Below, one piece after another: positions 6,942-47,757 of a stretch of 64,000 bases of DNA. The position numbers and the translations under genes are program-made. A model generated the notes under the pieces. That model had not been told where the DNA came from and did not search any database. It saw only the letters and a program-made list of their open reading frames with translations. This stretch comes from Cycloclasticus pugetii PS-1 (GTDB lineage: Bacteria; Pseudomonadota; Gammaproteobacteria; Methylococcales; Cycloclasticaceae), in NCBI RefSeq assembly GCF_000384415.1, contig NZ_ARVU01000001.1, forward strand, positions 1,674,001 to 1,738,000, written 5' to 3'. The number at the start of each line of letters is the position of its first letter. Position 1 is the first letter of the stretch.

Positions 6942-8681
6942 TTAATCTATTGGCTTAATTGAGCCCTCTATAATAGTAGCGTCAAACAACTCCATTATTT
7001 TCTTTACTGCGGGGTTGTTTCTTACTTCTTGCTCTGCCTGACGTTGCCTTTCAGCCACTTTATCATTAGCAATACTATTCGGTGTAACAATGTCTTTAGC
7101 CCCTTCGATGAGCTGAAGCTGTAACTTGCGCCCATAATAATCAGACAATGCCTGTTCTAAGTTTAGCTCTGATTTTTTATTTAGAGAAACATGCCCGCCC
7201 ATTAACATCAACTCACAGACGTGCTCGTCCAGTTTCACCAATGTTGCATTATTCGCTAACTGAAGTGTCATGGGATCCAAGCCTAATGTTGGCACCAACT
7301 CATGCCAAGGCAGATCTACATTGGCAGCTGGTTTTACTGTTTCAACAGGTTGTATAAGAGCCGTGGGGGCTGCTTTTTTAGCGACAGGAACCGGTTCTAC
7401 CGGACGCTTTGTTACTGGCGCTATATTTTCAGGTGTTTTTTTTTCAGGAATAATCAGTTTAGGAGCTTTTTTAGCTTTGCCCGTCTCTTTGCTGTCCTCT
7501 ACTGTGACCTTTTTTGGCACCGCTGCTACTTCAGTTAATTTTTGAGCCGCCACTGGTGGCTTTGGCTTAAGGCTAGCTTGTGCGATGGGTTTATCACTCC
7601 TATTAGCAACATCAACCGGTGCAAAGGCTAGCATCCTCAATAACACCATTTCAAACCCAACTTTTGGTGTAGGTGCCAACGGCAAGTCTTTTTGGCCCAT
7701 CAGTGCTATTTGATAATACAGCTGCACATCTTCTTTGCTTAACTGCTGGGCCAACATGGCCAACGCTTTATCTTCTGCGTCAGTTCCAACTATTTGACAG
7801 ACTGCTATTTGATGCAGGTGAATCAATAACGACTGCAACACTTCTGCATAGTCTGGGGCAAATTCATCCAGTGTTTGAATGCTAGCTAGCACTTCTGATC
7901 CTTGCTGAGTTAATAATGCCTTTAGTAAATCTAGTACCGGTTCGCGTGCAACGCTACCCAGCATATCAATTACATCAGCTTCATTCAGCTCACCGTTGCC
8001 GTGAACAATCGCCTGATCTAATAAACTAAGACCATCACGCATACTGCCATCAGCTGCACGTGCCAATAATTCAGTTGCTTGTTGTTGATATGCAATGCCT
8101 TCGCTTTCAAGAATTAGCTTAAATTGACCTTCAATTTGATCTGGCGATAAGCGCTTCAGGTTAAACTGCAAGCAACGAGATAAAACGGTCACTGGCATTT
8201 TTTGTGGATCTGTCGTTGCTAAAAGAAACTTAACATGAGCGGGCGGCTCTTCTAATGTTTTAAGCAGCGCGTTAAAACTACTTTTGGAAAACATGTGCAC
8301 TTCATCGATCAGGTAAACTTTATATTTACCGCGACTCGGCATATATTGAACGTTTTCTAACAGGTCTCGCGTGTCATCGACACCTGTTCTAGACGCCGCA
8401 TCAACTTCAATTAAATCGGGGTAACAACCTTGATCGACTTCTAGGCAAGTTTCACACTCACCACAAGGCTCTGCATTAGTAAGATTAGGGCAATTTAATG
8501 CTTTAGCTAATACGCGGGCAATTGTTGTTTTCCCTACTCCGCGTGTCCCTGTGAAGAGATAGGCATGATGCAAGCGGTCATTTTCTAAGCCATTGACCAA
8601 GGCACGCACGATATGCTCTTGCCCAACCACTTGAGCAAAATTTAACGGGCGCCATTTTCTTGCAAAGACTTTATAACTCAT
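6942..8681 (-). CDS. dnaX: DNA polymerase III subunits tau and gamma
   Basis: 579 residues. AAA+ clamp-loader ATPase with Walker A GTRGVGKTT near residue 45, zinc-binding cysteines (CPN ... CGECETC, about 64-79) and the DEVH box. A Pro/Lys/Ala-rich linker of about 90 residues follows, then the C-terminal tau region that binds polymerase and helicase. In E. coli a ribosomal frameshift in this gene makes the shorter gamma. An A9 run in the matching place is listed separately. The SRP RNA gene lies upstream on the same strand, and ybaB-recR-hinT follow. Confidence 0.97.
   Translation of the reverse strand: MSYKVFARKWRPLNFAQVVGQEHIVRALVNGLENDRLHHAYLFTGTRGVGKTTIARVLAKALNCPNLTNAEPCGECETCLEVDQGCYPDLIEVDAASRTGVDDTRDLLENVQYMPSRGKYKVYLIDEVHMFSKSSFNALLKTLEEPPAHVKFLLATTDPQKMPVTVLSRCLQFNLKRLSPDQIEGQFKLILESEGIAYQQQATELLARAADGSMRDGLSLLDQAIVHGNGELNEADVIDMLGSVAREPVLDLLKALLTQQGSEVLASIQTLDEFAPDYAEVLQSLLIHLHQIAVCQIVGTDAEDKALAMLAQQLSKEDVQLYYQIALMGQKDLPLAPTPKVGFEMVLLRMLAFAPVDVANRSDKPIAQASLKPKPPVAAQKLTEVAAVPKKVTVEDSKETGKAKKAPKLIIPEKKTPENIAPVTKRPVEPVPVAKKAAPTALIQPVETVKPAANVDLPWHELVPTLGLDPMTLQLANNATLVKLDEHVCELMLMGGHVSLNKKSELNLEQALSDYYGRKLQLQLIEGAKDIVTPNSIANDKVAERQRQAEQEVRNNPAVKKIMELFDATIIEGSIKPID
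7436..7445 (-). other. Candidate slippery site in dnaX (gamma production)
   Basis: On the coding strand there is a run of nine A after a G, read as GAA AAA AAA ACA at codons 413-416. A -1 shift (or one extra A in the transcript) would give AAC ACC TGA and so a protein of about 417 residues, close to the 431-residue E. coli gamma. Loss of one A also reaches a stop (TAG) within a few codons. The position, between the clamp-loader core and the tau-specific part, fits programmed or transcriptional slippage. That the site is used is inference. Confidence 0.6.
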
Positions 8682-43001: not shown

Positions 43002-43961
43002 TTAGTCATTTTTTGACGCGACTTTTAACAGGCGATTTTTACTCTTGAGACGATAAAAGAAATTAGGCTCGCTGATGACATAAATATCACCGTCTTTGTC
43101 CATTGTTATACCTTCAGCCTGCGGTACATCATCATGCAAACCAGCATTCCCTCTACTCAAGTCCAATCGGCTGATTTCAATCCCTTCTTTATTGACTTCA
43201 ACCATTTGACGAGATTCGTCACTCAAGAGTATTAGATGGCCTGTTTGATCGTCATAATGCACCCCTGAGTAATCATCACCGCCAAAAGAGGTTTTTTCTA
43301 AAGAAAACGGCGTTGAAATAGCGATATCAGATGATTCAACAAAACCCGACAGCTTTATCAGTTGTCGAGGTGTTTTCTCGTTAATGATAAATAAATCCCC
43401 ACTGTCTTGGTTATAAGTTAACCCTTCAAATCCTTTGTTTTTACCTGATGTAATGGCTAACTGAAGGCTCTTTAAGCCCACCCTATTAACAACCTTTGTT
43501 TGCGAATTAATATCGAACATTACCAAGGTTCTTTTTCGCTCTTCAACCACGGCATATCGTTCGCCGCCGAGATACATCACCCCTTCTGTGTCTTCGAAGC
43601 CAATTAAATCAATACGACGAATTAGCTCACCGTCTTTTGTCAGCTCAAGTAGCATTTCTGGGTTATTAACAACAGCAAATAATGTATTGGTATTGCTGTT
43701 ATAGGTTAGGCCAGATGCATTATCTTTAACACCCGCTATCATCTTAGGCGTTGCGTGAATTTCATAGCCAGTTAAGCCAATTTGCTGTCCAGCAACTATG
43801 GGGGTTTCTTCACCGCTGAAGAGGCCGAATGAAACGACTAATATTAACAAGAGATAGATCAGGTTTTGCTTATTACAAACTTTTAAATCACCAATACGAG
43901 ACTGCTCCAAAACAATTTTTAAGCAATAATCTAAACGAGATATTCGTGTGGTATTCAGCAT
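43002..43961 (-). CDS. SdiA-regulated/YjiK-like beta-propeller protein
   Basis: 319 residues from the ATG at 43961, which has AAGG nine bases upstream. The open frame extends to 44045, but that part overlaps a Pho-box array, so the shorter start is preferred. A hydrophobic anchor (YLLLILVVSFGLF, about 36-48) puts the rest in the periplasm. The body has repeated propeller blades: ASGLTYNSNTNTLFAV, DTEGVMYLGGERYAVVEE, GFEGLTYNQDSGDLFI, YSGVHYDDQTGHLILL and AEGITMDKDGDIYVIS. The family is related to esterase-like phytase propellers. Pho control would suit a phosphate-scavenging role, but this is inference. Confidence 0.8.
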   Translation of the reverse strand: MLNTTRISRLDYCLKIVLEQSRIGDLKVCNKQNLIYLLLILVVSFGLFSGEETPIVAGQQIGLTGYEIHATPKMIAGVKDNASGLTYNSNTNTLFAVVNNPEMLLELTKDGELIRRIDLIGFEDTEGVMYLGGERYAVVEERKRTLVMFDINSQTKVVNRVGLKSLQLAITSGKNKGFEGLTYNQDSGDLFIINEKTPRQLIKLSGFVESSDIAISTPFSLEKTSFGGDDYSGVHYDDQTGHLILLSDESRQMVEVNKEGIEISRLDLSRGNAGLHDDVPQAEGITMDKDGDIYVISEPNFFYRLKSKNRLLKVASKND

Positions 43962-44003
43962 GGCATTCATCCTTAAAATTTGCAGTGAATGTAACCAATG
44001 ATG

Positions 44004-44032
44004 ATGACAACGAAGTGTCAGAACGATGACAA
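44004..44032 (-). promoter_or_regulatory. Pho-box array for the beta-propeller gene
   Basis: Reverse strand: TTGTCAT, CGTT, CTGACAC, TTCG, TTGTCAT. Three 7-base repeats are at exact 11-base spacing, the pattern bound by PhoB (consensus CTGTCAT). A possible -10, TACATT, follows 10 bases downstream (43988-43993). Confidence 0.75.
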
Positions 44033-44117
44033 TATGCAGACGCAAGGCACAAATACCTATCTCAGCCCTTTCCGTGTAACAGGAAAATTTCGCCCCATAA
44101 AACCAAAGGATTAGACA

Positions 44118-44135
44118 CTGTCACGAACCTGTCAT
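44118..44135 (+). promoter_or_regulatory. Pho box for ppk1-ppx
   Basis: CTGTCAC, GAAC, CTGTCAT: two near-perfect PhoB half-sites at 11-base spacing, followed after 10 bases by CATAAT (44146-44151), a likely -10. The ppk1 start is 48 bases beyond the box. Confidence 0.8.
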
Positions 44136-44182
44136 CTTGCCTCTACATAATAAAGTTTTAGTAAACGGCTTAGGTAGGTTAG

Positions 44183-46252
44183 GTGATCAAAAAATTAGAG
44201 GCGAAATATATTGCGAAAGAACTCAGCTGGCTGTCCTTTAACGAGCGCGTGCTACAAGAAGCGGCTGATAAATCCACACCTATTATAGAAAGAGTCCGGT
44301 TTTTAGGCATTTTTTCAAACAACCTAGATGAGTTTTTCAGGGTGCGCGTTGCCAATGTTAAGCGCCGGGTTCTTATTGAGAAAGACCTTGATGAACAAAC
44401 ACCGACCAAAAACTTGTTACGTGATATACAAAAAAAGGTCTTAAAGCTACAAGAAGAATTTGATGTCACTTACCATGAGGTATTGAAAGGGCTCGCGCAT
44501 AAAAACATTTTCTTAATTAATGAAGATCAACTGAGCCCCGAGCAAGGAAACTGGCTACAAAAATACTTTACCAATCATCTACAAGGTTTTATTGAGCCTA
44601 TTATTATCAATAAAAATACTAATTTAGCGGCCTTATTAAAAGATGACCTCAGCTATTTAATTTGTGAAATGCTGGGTGGTAAAAACATACAGTATGCAGC
44701 AATTGCGATACCAACCACAGACTCTCCTCGTTTTATTGAATTACCACGTGAAAAAGGTAAACGACGACGAGATATTATTATGTCCGACAATATTATTCGC
44801 TATTGTATAAACAATATTTTTTCCGCCTATTTTAATTACAAGGTCTGCAATGTTTACGCTATGAAGGTAACGGGAGATGCTGATTTCGGTCTAACCGATG
44901 ATATTGATTTATCGGTTTTAGAAAAATTATCTATCGGTTTAAAGCAGCGCCTACATGCTAAGCCTGTGAGATTTGTGTACGAACGAGCCATGCCCGATCA
45001 TGCTATCGACATGCTGAAATCTAAACTTGGCATTACACGTCATGATAGTGTGGTGCCAGGTGGCCGTTATCATAATTTCCGAGACTTTATTGACTTCCCT
45101 AATGTGGGGCGTAAACACCTTGAAAACCCTCCGTTAACACCTTTGGTTTCTAGGCAATTTTCCCGTCATGCCTGCCCTTTTGATGCAATAAAGCAGCAAG
45201 ACATTTTGCTTTGTTACCCTTATCACAAGTTTGATCACTTTACCGAATTGATACGTCAGGCAGCTTTTGATCCAAATGTATTTGAAATAAAAATCTGCCT
45301 CTACCGTGTAGCCAACAACAGTAGGCTTATCAAGTCACTGATCAATGCGGTTAGAAATGGCAAAGAAGTTTTTGCTGTTATTGAGTTACACGCACGTTTT
45401 GATGAACAAGCCAACATGGAATGGGCGCGTATCTTAACCGAGTCGGGTGTTAAGGTTCACTTTGGCTTACCCTCACTAAAGTGCCACACTAAATTATGTT
45501 TAATTGGCCGACATGAACATAAAAAACAAACCTATTACGCTCACGTTGGCACCGGTAACTTTCACGAAAAAACAGCTAAGGTTTACACCGACTTTAGTTT
45601 ATTTACCAACAAACAAGCGATTACCAAGGAAGTTGCGCTTGTTTTTGACTTTATTGCGCACAGTTATAAAAAAACCACGTTTAAACATTTAATTGTTTCC
45701 CCTATCGGCACAAGAGATTGGATTAATAAATCGATTGAGAATGAAATAAAGATGGCCAAAAAAGGGCATAAGGCTGAAATTCTTATTAAAATGAATAACA
45801 TTGATGATAAGCAAGTTATTGATAAGTTGTACGAGGCCAGTAGTGCCGGTGTGAAAATTAAAATCGTCTTGAGGGGAATGTGCAGTTTAGCTCCTGGGGT
45901 TGTAGGGCTTAGTGACAATATTGAAGTTATTTCTATTGTCGACCGATTTTTAGAACATACACGATTTACGATTTTTCATAATAATGGAGACCCTCGCGTT
46001 ACCATTAGTTCGGCAGACTGGATGACGCGTAATATAGAGCGGCGTGTAGAGGTTGGCTGCCCTATTTATGACCCTGCCATTCAGCAACAAATTATCCATA
46101 TCTTTAACCTCCAATGGTCCGATAAGACAAAGGCCAGAATTATAGATAAGAAACAACATAACAAATATTTGCCACGAGGCAATAAGCGAAAAATTCGCTC
46201 TCAAATATCGGTGTATAACTATCTAAAAGACCTTGAGTCTAACAAGAAATGA
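44183..46252 (+). CDS. ppk1: Polyphosphate kinase 1
   Basis: 689 residues starting at GTG. The N domain opens with KELSWLSFNERVLQEA and NNLDEFFRVRVANVKRRV. Two phospholipase-D-like halves carry the active site: IKICLYRVANNSRLI and ELHARFDEQANM, then YAHVGTGNFHEKTAKVYTD with the autophosphorylated His region, and late SADWMTRNIERRVEVGCP. It reversibly builds polyphosphate from ATP. It overlaps ppx by 4 bases, forming a two-gene operon under a Pho box. Confidence 0.96.
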   Translation: MIKKLEAKYIAKELSWLSFNERVLQEAADKSTPIIERVRFLGIFSNNLDEFFRVRVANVKRRVLIEKDLDEQTPTKNLLRDIQKKVLKLQEEFDVTYHEVLKGLAHKNIFLINEDQLSPEQGNWLQKYFTNHLQGFIEPIIINKNTNLAALLKDDLSYLICEMLGGKNIQYAAIAIPTTDSPRFIELPREKGKRRRDIIMSDNIIRYCINNIFSAYFNYKVCNVYAMKVTGDADFGLTDDIDLSVLEKLSIGLKQRLHAKPVRFVYERAMPDHAIDMLKSKLGITRHDSVVPGGRYHNFRDFIDFPNVGRKHLENPPLTPLVSRQFSRHACPFDAIKQQDILLCYPYHKFDHFTELIRQAAFDPNVFEIKICLYRVANNSRLIKSLINAVRNGKEVFAVIELHARFDEQANMEWARILTESGVKVHFGLPSLKCHTKLCLIGRHEHKKQTYYAHVGTGNFHEKTAKVYTDFSLFTNKQAITKEVALVFDFIAHSYKKTTFKHLIVSPIGTRDWINKSIENEIKMAKKGHKAEILIKMNNIDDKQVIDKLYEASSAGVKIKIVLRGMCSLAPGVVGLSDNIEVISIVDRFLEHTRFTIFHNNGDPRVTISSADWMTRNIERRVEVGCPIYDPAIQQQIIHIFNLQWSDKTKARIIDKKQHNKYLPRGNKRKIRSQISVYNYLKDLESNKK

Positions 46253-47757
46253 CTAGCCTTAACGCCGATACCCAATCAGAATTAATTGCTGCCTTAGATT
46301 TAGGCTCTAATAGTTTTCACTTAATTATTGCTCGCTTAAATGCCGGTAAGCTTGAACCTCTGCATAAGGTAAAACATCGAGTACGCTTACGAGCGGGGTT
46401 AAATAAGGCTAATGAATTAAGTTACGAGGCGATGCTAAGAGCAGCAAGCAGTCTTAAAGAAATGAGCGCTACAATAAAAACATATCAAATTAAAAAATGT
46501 CGTGTCGTGGCCACTCATACCTTGCGAGAAGCTGTTAACCGTAATGCTTTTCTCTCACTGGCTGAGTACTCATTGGGCTTTCCTATTGAAATAATTTCAG
46601 GCTCTGAAGAGGCCAGATTAATCTACCAAGGGGTCGTTCGTAGCGAAGAAATCAAAGACTCATGTTTGGTGGTTGATATAGGTGGTGGCAGTACTGAAAT
46701 AGTGCTGGGTGAAGGCACTGATACTCAATATAGAGACAGCAAAAACATGGGCTGCATCAGCTTTACAGAACGTTACTTCAGTAAAGGCGTGAATCAAAAA
46801 TCATTTAAACGGGCCGAGGTATCCGCACTGCAAAAGCTTGAGCAGTGTTCCCATCATTTTAGGACAAGTCACCCAAATAAGGTCTTTGCAACATCAGGCA
46901 CCGCCAAAGCCCTTTTTAAGGCGATCGGTTTAATCAGCGAAACAACCGACCGTCTAGAATTAAATACCTTACTCAAATTACAACATTTATTATGCCAAAT
47001 AGACGGTGTCTCTAAGCTCTCATTAGTTGGTATTGACGAAGCTAGAGCCATGGTTTTACCTGCTGGCTTAGCCATTATGATTGCCCTTATGAAGAGCCTA
47101 AACCTAACTGCTTTGACATTCTGCTCTGCTGCCTTGCGCGAGGGCGTCTTGTTTGAAATGGAGCAACAAAATAAACAAGGAGATACACGGCTGCGTACTC
47201 GCCAACATTTACAACGTCTTTACAACGTTGACCGTAGGCAGGCCCAACAAATAGCAGAAACTTGCGAGCTATTTTGGCACCAAACTTCAAAAAGCTGGAG
47301 TCTAACCTCAACGAAACTTAAGACTCTATTACTTGAGGCCGCTTATTTATATGAGGTTGGCCAGCAAATTAATGTGACTGACTTTCAGCAACATTCAGCT
47401 TATATTTTGGCTAACAGTGACCTTGCGGGCTATAACCAAGACGAACAGCTTCTGCTTTCAACCATCGTCATTGGGGCTAGAAAACGGTTTAGACGAAGAC
47501 GGCTTCCCGACATTCGAATTATCAGCCATAAAATGTTAACGCGGTTAATTCGCCTATTTCGCTTAGCTGTTATTATAAATAATAGCCGCCAGCCCTTAGT
47601 TATCGATTTATTATCGCTTCAGGTTGATGGGCGCGAAATGATGCTAAGCATTGATAAACAGTTCTTTCTTGAACAAGACGTGACTATGGCTGACTTAAAC
47701 AAAGAGTCCAGTGTTATGGCAAACCTAGGCTACACCCTGTCTTGCCAAATTGTTTAA
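46249..47757 (+). CDS. ppx: Exopolyphosphatase (Ppx/GppA family)
   Basis: 502 residues. The sugar-kinase/actin-fold motifs are ALDLGSNSFHLIIAR at 15-29, EEARLIYQGV near 119, VVDIGGGSTEIVLG near 140 and a C-terminal HD-like helical domain with LEAAYLYEVGQQIN. It removes phosphate from polyphosphate ends and possibly from pppGpp. The ATG overlaps the ppk1 stop (ATGA), so synthesis and breakdown enzymes are co-translated. Confidence 0.95.
   Translation: MTSLNADTQSELIAALDLGSNSFHLIIARLNAGKLEPLHKVKHRVRLRAGLNKANELSYEAMLRAASSLKEMSATIKTYQIKKCRVVATHTLREAVNRNAFLSLAEYSLGFPIEIISGSEEARLIYQGVVRSEEIKDSCLVVDIGGGSTEIVLGEGTDTQYRDSKNMGCISFTERYFSKGVNQKSFKRAEVSALQKLEQCSHHFRTSHPNKVFATSGTAKALFKAIGLISETTDRLELNTLLKLQHLLCQIDGVSKLSLVGIDEARAMVLPAGLAIMIALMKSLNLTALTFCSAALREGVLFEMEQQNKQGDTRLRTRQHLQRLYNVDRRQAQQIAETCELFWHQTSKSWSLTSTKLKTLLLEAAYLYEVGQQINVTDFQQHSAYILANSDLAGYNQDEQLLLSTIVIGARKRFRRRRLPDIRIISHKMLTRLIRLFRLAVIINNSRQPLVIDLLSLQVDGREMMLSIDKQFFLEQDVTMADLNKESSVMANLGYTLSCQIV

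Follow-up and report, generated by a model that had tools for sequence, protein, structure and literature searches.

This study revealed an intergenic stretch of Cycloclasticus pugetii PS-1 that probably carries two separate PhoB-activated promoters, standing back to back by chance, of which one reads rightward into ppk1-ppx and the other leftward into a propeller protein of the YjiK/CarP type. The stretch lies in a window of 64,000 nucleotides, by which we mean the whole length of DNA that was analysed, and the window is part of one contig of 2,383,924 bases. Judged by sequence, Pho control is well supported on both sides; it is an ordinary case for ppk1-ppx, and the propeller gene is the new part. 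Pho-regulated ppk genes elsewhere differ in nothing notable, PhoB binding being predicted here, and a review describes Ppk as induced by phosphate starvation in most bacteria (PMC4415409). While Pho-controlled ppk is known, the propeller protein seems to be a newly recognised part of the response to phosphate starvation. The open-licence literature yielded no account of a PF06977 protein under Pho control, no paper that joins SdiA-regulated proteins with phosphate starvation and, for Cycloclasticus together with PhoB, no title concerning such a Pho regulon. The analysis uses sequence to sketch the core Pho regulon in a marine bacterium that degrades oil, places an obscure propeller family under predicted phosphate control in two families, and offers low phosphate as a concrete condition for finding the function of the propeller.

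Table 1. Genes and predicted promoter elements of the ppk1-propeller region (positions in the window)
Feature	Position	Strand	Basis or remarks
PF06977 (SdiA-regulated, YjiK-type) propeller protein	43002..43961, start may be 43970	-	profile and YjiK match
Candidate -10 TACATT, propeller gene	43988..43993	-	10 bases past last box; same in G001 and G003
Predicted triple Pho box, propeller gene	44004..44032	-	TTGTCAT-CGTT-CTGACAC-TTCG-TTGTCAT
Predicted Pho box, ppk1-ppx	44118..44135	+	CTGTCAC-GAAC-CTGTCAT; matrix rank, exact match, conserved
Candidate -10 CATAAT, ppk1-ppx	44146..44151	+	10 bases past box
ppk1, polyphosphate kinase 1, GTG start	44183..46252	+	TIGR03705 793.6 bits (cut-off 465.85); Pfam PP_kinase domains
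ppx/gppA-type exopolyphosphatase	46249..47757	+	Ppx-GppA 232.4 bits; overlaps ppk1 by 4 bases

PhoB bound to direct repeats stands in for a -35 element and recruits RNA polymerase. An earlier note on this DNA had described heptamer repeats and candidate -10 hexamers ahead of both genes, and direct reading found every one of them, exact in position, strand and spacing (Table 1). The minus-strand heptamers TTGTCAT (44032-44026), CTGACAC (44021-44015) and TTGTCAT (44010-44004) keep an exact 11-base register, and the two box sets are separated by 85 bases. CTGTCAT-like direct repeats with 11-base spacing, as expected of a Pho promoter, are thus present, and on both sides a candidate -10 lies within the expected 10-11 bases of the last repeat. 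The one of the propeller gene is weak: TACATT agrees with TATAAT at just 4 of 6 positions, CATAAT on the ppk1 side at 5 of 6. A standard sigma-70 scan called no promoter at either candidate -10, which is expected where PhoB replaces a -35 element. The heptamer register and the distance to the -10 are also those of the PhoB-dependent phoB and pstS promoters, as seen in this genome; the propeller promoter differs from these in having three heptamers, like the porin promoter of the same genome, with the middle one a single base off the consensus.

The reading of both elements as PhoB-type boxes, also put forward in that note, was borne out at the level of sequence by a matrix for the genus, by near-exact matches across the genome and by conservation between genomes. 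The Pho-box matrix was built from 33 sites of Cycloclasticus genomes, the best one per upstream region of phoB (11), pstS (11) and the porin gene (11), without any ppk1 or propeller site. Because a seed motif was used to pick these sites, they fit the matrix by design, whereas the test sites are independent of it. Among the 127,966 positions on both strands of the window, the matrix assigned ranks 1 to 3 to the box pairs at 44118 (+, 19.3), 44032 (-, 15.3) and 44021 (-, 11.9), the next-best position scoring 8.9. When a whole gene group was left out of the matrix, its sites scored from 5.5 to 25.4, with phoB lowest, so that a score of only about 5 is compatible with a genuine site. Both strands of the window together contain one triple that matches at 20 or more of 21 positions; a simulation of 6.4 Mb of single-strand sequence produced none, its best being two triples with 18 matches. 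Chance repeats were ruled out as an explanation by the matrix rank, the simulated triples and the conservation across genomes.

The pattern YTGTCAY-N4-YTGTCAY was further searched on both strands of the whole genome, with the reversed pattern as control. Exact matches to YTGTCAYNNNNYTGTCAY were found at 5 places, all of them in four promoters, namely those of phoB, pstS, the porin gene (two overlapping pairs) and ppk1. Allowing at most one mismatch gave 18 places against 9 for the control. Two of the 13 one-mismatch places beyond the exact five are the overlapping pairs of the propeller gene; the other 11 lie within a longer ORF (8) or ahead of an ORF (3). No excess over the genome was left at up to two mismatches, where the pattern had 180 places and its reversed form 170. 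An E. coli-type pattern with up to three mismatches gave 8 matches in the window against 4.2 expected, a number reached by 5 of 100 shuffles. Given that loose patterns show little or no excess, the case depends on the near-exact matches, the genus matrix and the conservation.

With regard to the regulator, the genome encodes a PhoB (310.2 bits against a curated cut-off of 296.2) at the head of a phoB-phoR-pst-phoU-porin cluster, which comprises phoB, phoR, a binding protein, two permeases, an ATPase, phoU, a Porin_5 porin, a DUF47 protein and a PHO4 transporter. The porin promoter has a triple design like that of the propeller gene, with all 21 of 21 positions matching. Related OmpR-family regulators can bind similar repeats, and the PhoB model has 31 matches in this genome, mostly other receiver domains. 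Nevertheless, it is highly improbable that another regulator of this family binds the boxes instead of PhoB, as the same motif stands ahead of phoB, pstS and the porin gene and just one of the 31 matches passes the PhoB cut-off.

Among 18 Cycloclasticus genomes, the window's own included, ppk1 was found in 7, and all seven carry an upstream site by the genus matrix. Five of these sites score 21.7 (G003), 19.3 (G000 and G001), 19.1 (G017) and 18.1 (G008), and two are weaker (11.7 in G009 and 9.2 in G004). A site scoring 13.0 also precedes ppk1 in G029, a genome of another family. In an alignment of five of the seven upstream sequences, both halves of the box are conspicuous, as is the -10 region, and four of the five have NATAAT. 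The adjoining ppx/gppA-type protein matches NCBIfam equivalog models below their cut-offs.

The propeller gene is present in 6 of the 18 Cycloclasticus genomes, and its site is clear in four of them, weak in G009 and not convincing in G004. Its close orthologues in G001 and G003 (83% and 81% identity) keep the triple box, and the candidate -10 TACATT is identical. They share the one-base departure of the middle heptamer and have one more departure, and with these the matrix scores drop to 7.5 and 8.5. The upstream sequences align closely from ATTGTCAT onward and poorly beyond about 30 bases upstream of it. Ahead of the distant propellers (34-36% identity), the best sites score 18.6 (G008), 5.4 (G009) and -0.9 (G004), and a TATAAT-like hexamer lies 10 bases past the best site in all three.

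The shorter start at 43961 had been favoured in the earlier note. In-frame stops in both close orthologues rule out the long TTG start at 44045 and show that a short start is right, but 43961 is not favoured over the ATG at 43970. The latter is kept in all three genomes, the codon at 43961 being TTG in G001, and a start at 43970 appears at least as likely from the sequences.

Outside the genus, most propeller homologues have no Pho box. PF06977 matches were found in 21 of 301 sampled genomes of the order, and 14 of the 15 PF06977 genes from outside Cycloclasticus had no box in an upstream scan: G487 gave 5.3, far upstream of a 1346-residue frame, and the other 13 gave 1.3 at most. The remaining gene belongs to G023, from the family of G029; it is preceded by a triple box that scores 16.6 and stops 49 bases short of the ATG. 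This gene shifts frame midway, through assembly error or decay, and a search for ppk1 in G023 gave no match. In a class sample, 10 of 370 genomes, the window's own among them, had a PF06977 match; a scan of five genes in four of the other nine (two in G184, one each in G024, G232 and G131) showed no convincing site, the best scoring 2.8, the remaining five genomes with a match being G058, G157, G245, G255 and G375. There was likewise no Pho box upstream of yjiK, ytiA and yjiM in E. coli. Missing boxes in distant genomes are weak evidence, as boxes there may differ somewhat.

The idea that the pairing of the two promoters matters in itself, to which the earlier note had given weight, was not supported, as in G001 and G003 the genes are apart, each with its own box. 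In G001, a stretch of about 8 kb that includes M20 and M14 peptidase genes and an ATP-grasp gene separates the propeller gene from ppk1; in G003, the two genes are found on separate contigs and among other neighbours. The distance is about 21 kb in G004; the genes are far apart on one contig in G008 and on different contigs in G009. The back-to-back promoters therefore occur in the window genome only: divergent pairing was rejected as a conserved feature, since none of the five other Cycloclasticus genomes with both genes keeps it. Separate function of the two boxes is best indicated by the fact that each one stays with its own gene when the genes are apart. Alternatively, the two box sets could form a single control region working in both directions and linking the propeller protein to polyphosphate metabolism, as they are 85 bases apart and the genes co-occur in the genus. 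The propeller gene is found in 6 of the 7 ppk1-positive and none of the 11 ppk1-negative genomes (Fisher p 0.0004, ignoring shared descent), and in 4 of 5 against 0 of 5 among genomes at least 90% complete (p 0.048, again ignoring shared descent). With the pairing absent from all five other carriers, such a region is very unlikely, and the arrangement looks like a local accident.

In the preferred reading of two separate promoters, PhoR would phosphorylate PhoB under phosphate starvation. PhoB would then bind the direct repeats of 11-base spacing and stand in for the -35 element, and RNA polymerase would be led to the -10 lying 10 bases downstream. Rightward, ppk1-ppx would be raised and polyphosphate laid down and recovered; leftward, the YjiK/CarP-type propeller would be raised.

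The propeller protein matches the SdiA-regulated family PF06977 with 281.7 bits (cut-off 21) over residues 60-306, and the structure of YjiK (3qqz) over the whole propeller (E 4.4e-46). This domain was earlier described as NHL-like repeats, likely forming a six-bladed propeller (PMC1084347). In contrast to the window gene, neither yjiK of E. coli nor its upstream genes carry a Pho box. In a profile search of solved structures, YjiK was matched at full length; the other matches were short and fell in designed Pizza propellers, PknD and NHL-type proteins, and no phytase was among the 27 matches. A match to PF22701 scored 27.9, and none was found in NCBIfam. A hydrophobic stretch near the N-terminus, read from the sequence, suggests a membrane anchor; attachment to the inner membrane, with the protein facing the periplasm, is probable. 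Seven acidic residues are invariant among 14 homologues, several of them in an EG...E arrangement, and these could line a channel or bind a metal.

The earlier note had proposed a phosphate-scavenging enzyme related to esterase-like phytases, an idea which fits poorly with these matches. The Pho box and the seven invariant acidic residues speak for a periplasmic scavenging enzyme, be it phytase-like or another phosphoesterase. The protein does show a partial likeness to PF13449, the family of esterase-like activity of phytase, which passes its cut-off of 27.6 with 39.1 bits. In the cyanobacterium Nodularia, the genes that respond to phosphate limitation with a rise include one for a protein of the PF13449 type (PMC9846622). 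However, this likeness covers only residues 122-197 and 78 of the 284 profile positions, the SdiA-regulated score is seven times higher, the sole solved relative over the whole propeller is YjiK, and most homologues elsewhere have no Pho box. We therefore consider such an enzyme unlikely.

The most useful pointer to a function comes from CarP (PA0327) of Pseudomonas aeruginosa, likened here through the domain name of its homologues. Its mutation lowers calcium export, and its homologues are annotated as SdiA-regulated domain proteins, the domain name shared with the window protein (PMC10574481). CarP itself appears in a listing as a beta-propeller protein of the inner membrane (PMC12802237). 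It is described in print as a target of the calcium-regulated CarSR system (PMC11559002), whereas the gene studied here is a candidate for Pho control. A CarP-like envelope protein for calcium homeostasis, with phosphate control arising from the interplay of phosphate, polyphosphate and calcium in calcium-rich seawater, is a tentative explanation and on present evidence somewhat doubtful. The annotation of the CarP homologues and the conserved acidic residues speak for it; the two PF06977 proteins of G184, at just 34% and 32% identity to the window protein, speak against it. Overall, binding of a ligand or cation in envelope homeostasis is a likelier role for the propeller than that of a phosphatase. 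It is a speculative possibility that one clade of PF06977 propellers, found in Cycloclasticus and in one or more further families, is a standing effector of the Pho regulon, either as a CarP-like envelope protein that links phosphate starvation and polyphosphate with the handling of calcium in seawater or as a new propeller phosphoesterase. If true, either reading would give this obscure family a physiological setting beyond calcium signalling in Pseudomonas.

Several minor observations were made alongside. The ppk1 products of the genus are 74-91% identical (full or near-full matches), against 49% for G029 and 32-37% for other full-length PPK1 proteins in the order, and perhaps form a separate PPK1 lineage. 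In G004, ppx is apparently split (L068:6385-8979) by an ORF resembling a transposase by eye (7349-8371). In G017, ppk1-ppx adjoins the phoB-pst-porin cluster with one EAL/GGDEF gene in between, which speaks for the reading of Pho control. An EAL/GGDEF gene is divergent to, and adjoins, phoB in G000 and G017 (L064:3457-5244, L066:8097-9944), where a link of cyclic-di-GMP with phosphate is possible. G001 has two porin genes (C83, L116 and C11, L125), 100% and 68% identical to that of G000, possibly reflecting a mixed assembly. Of the three one-mismatch places ahead of an ORF, one scoring 15.9 lies about 115 bases 5' of one ORF and touches the start of another, and one scoring 12.1 lies about 27 bases 5' of an ORF resembling methionine aminopeptidase by eye. 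The third, a box scoring 19.8 (G000:C1:765798-765815), is found 46 bases 5' of an ORF resembling pyruvate kinase by eye, and this may be a further member of the regulon or a chance match.
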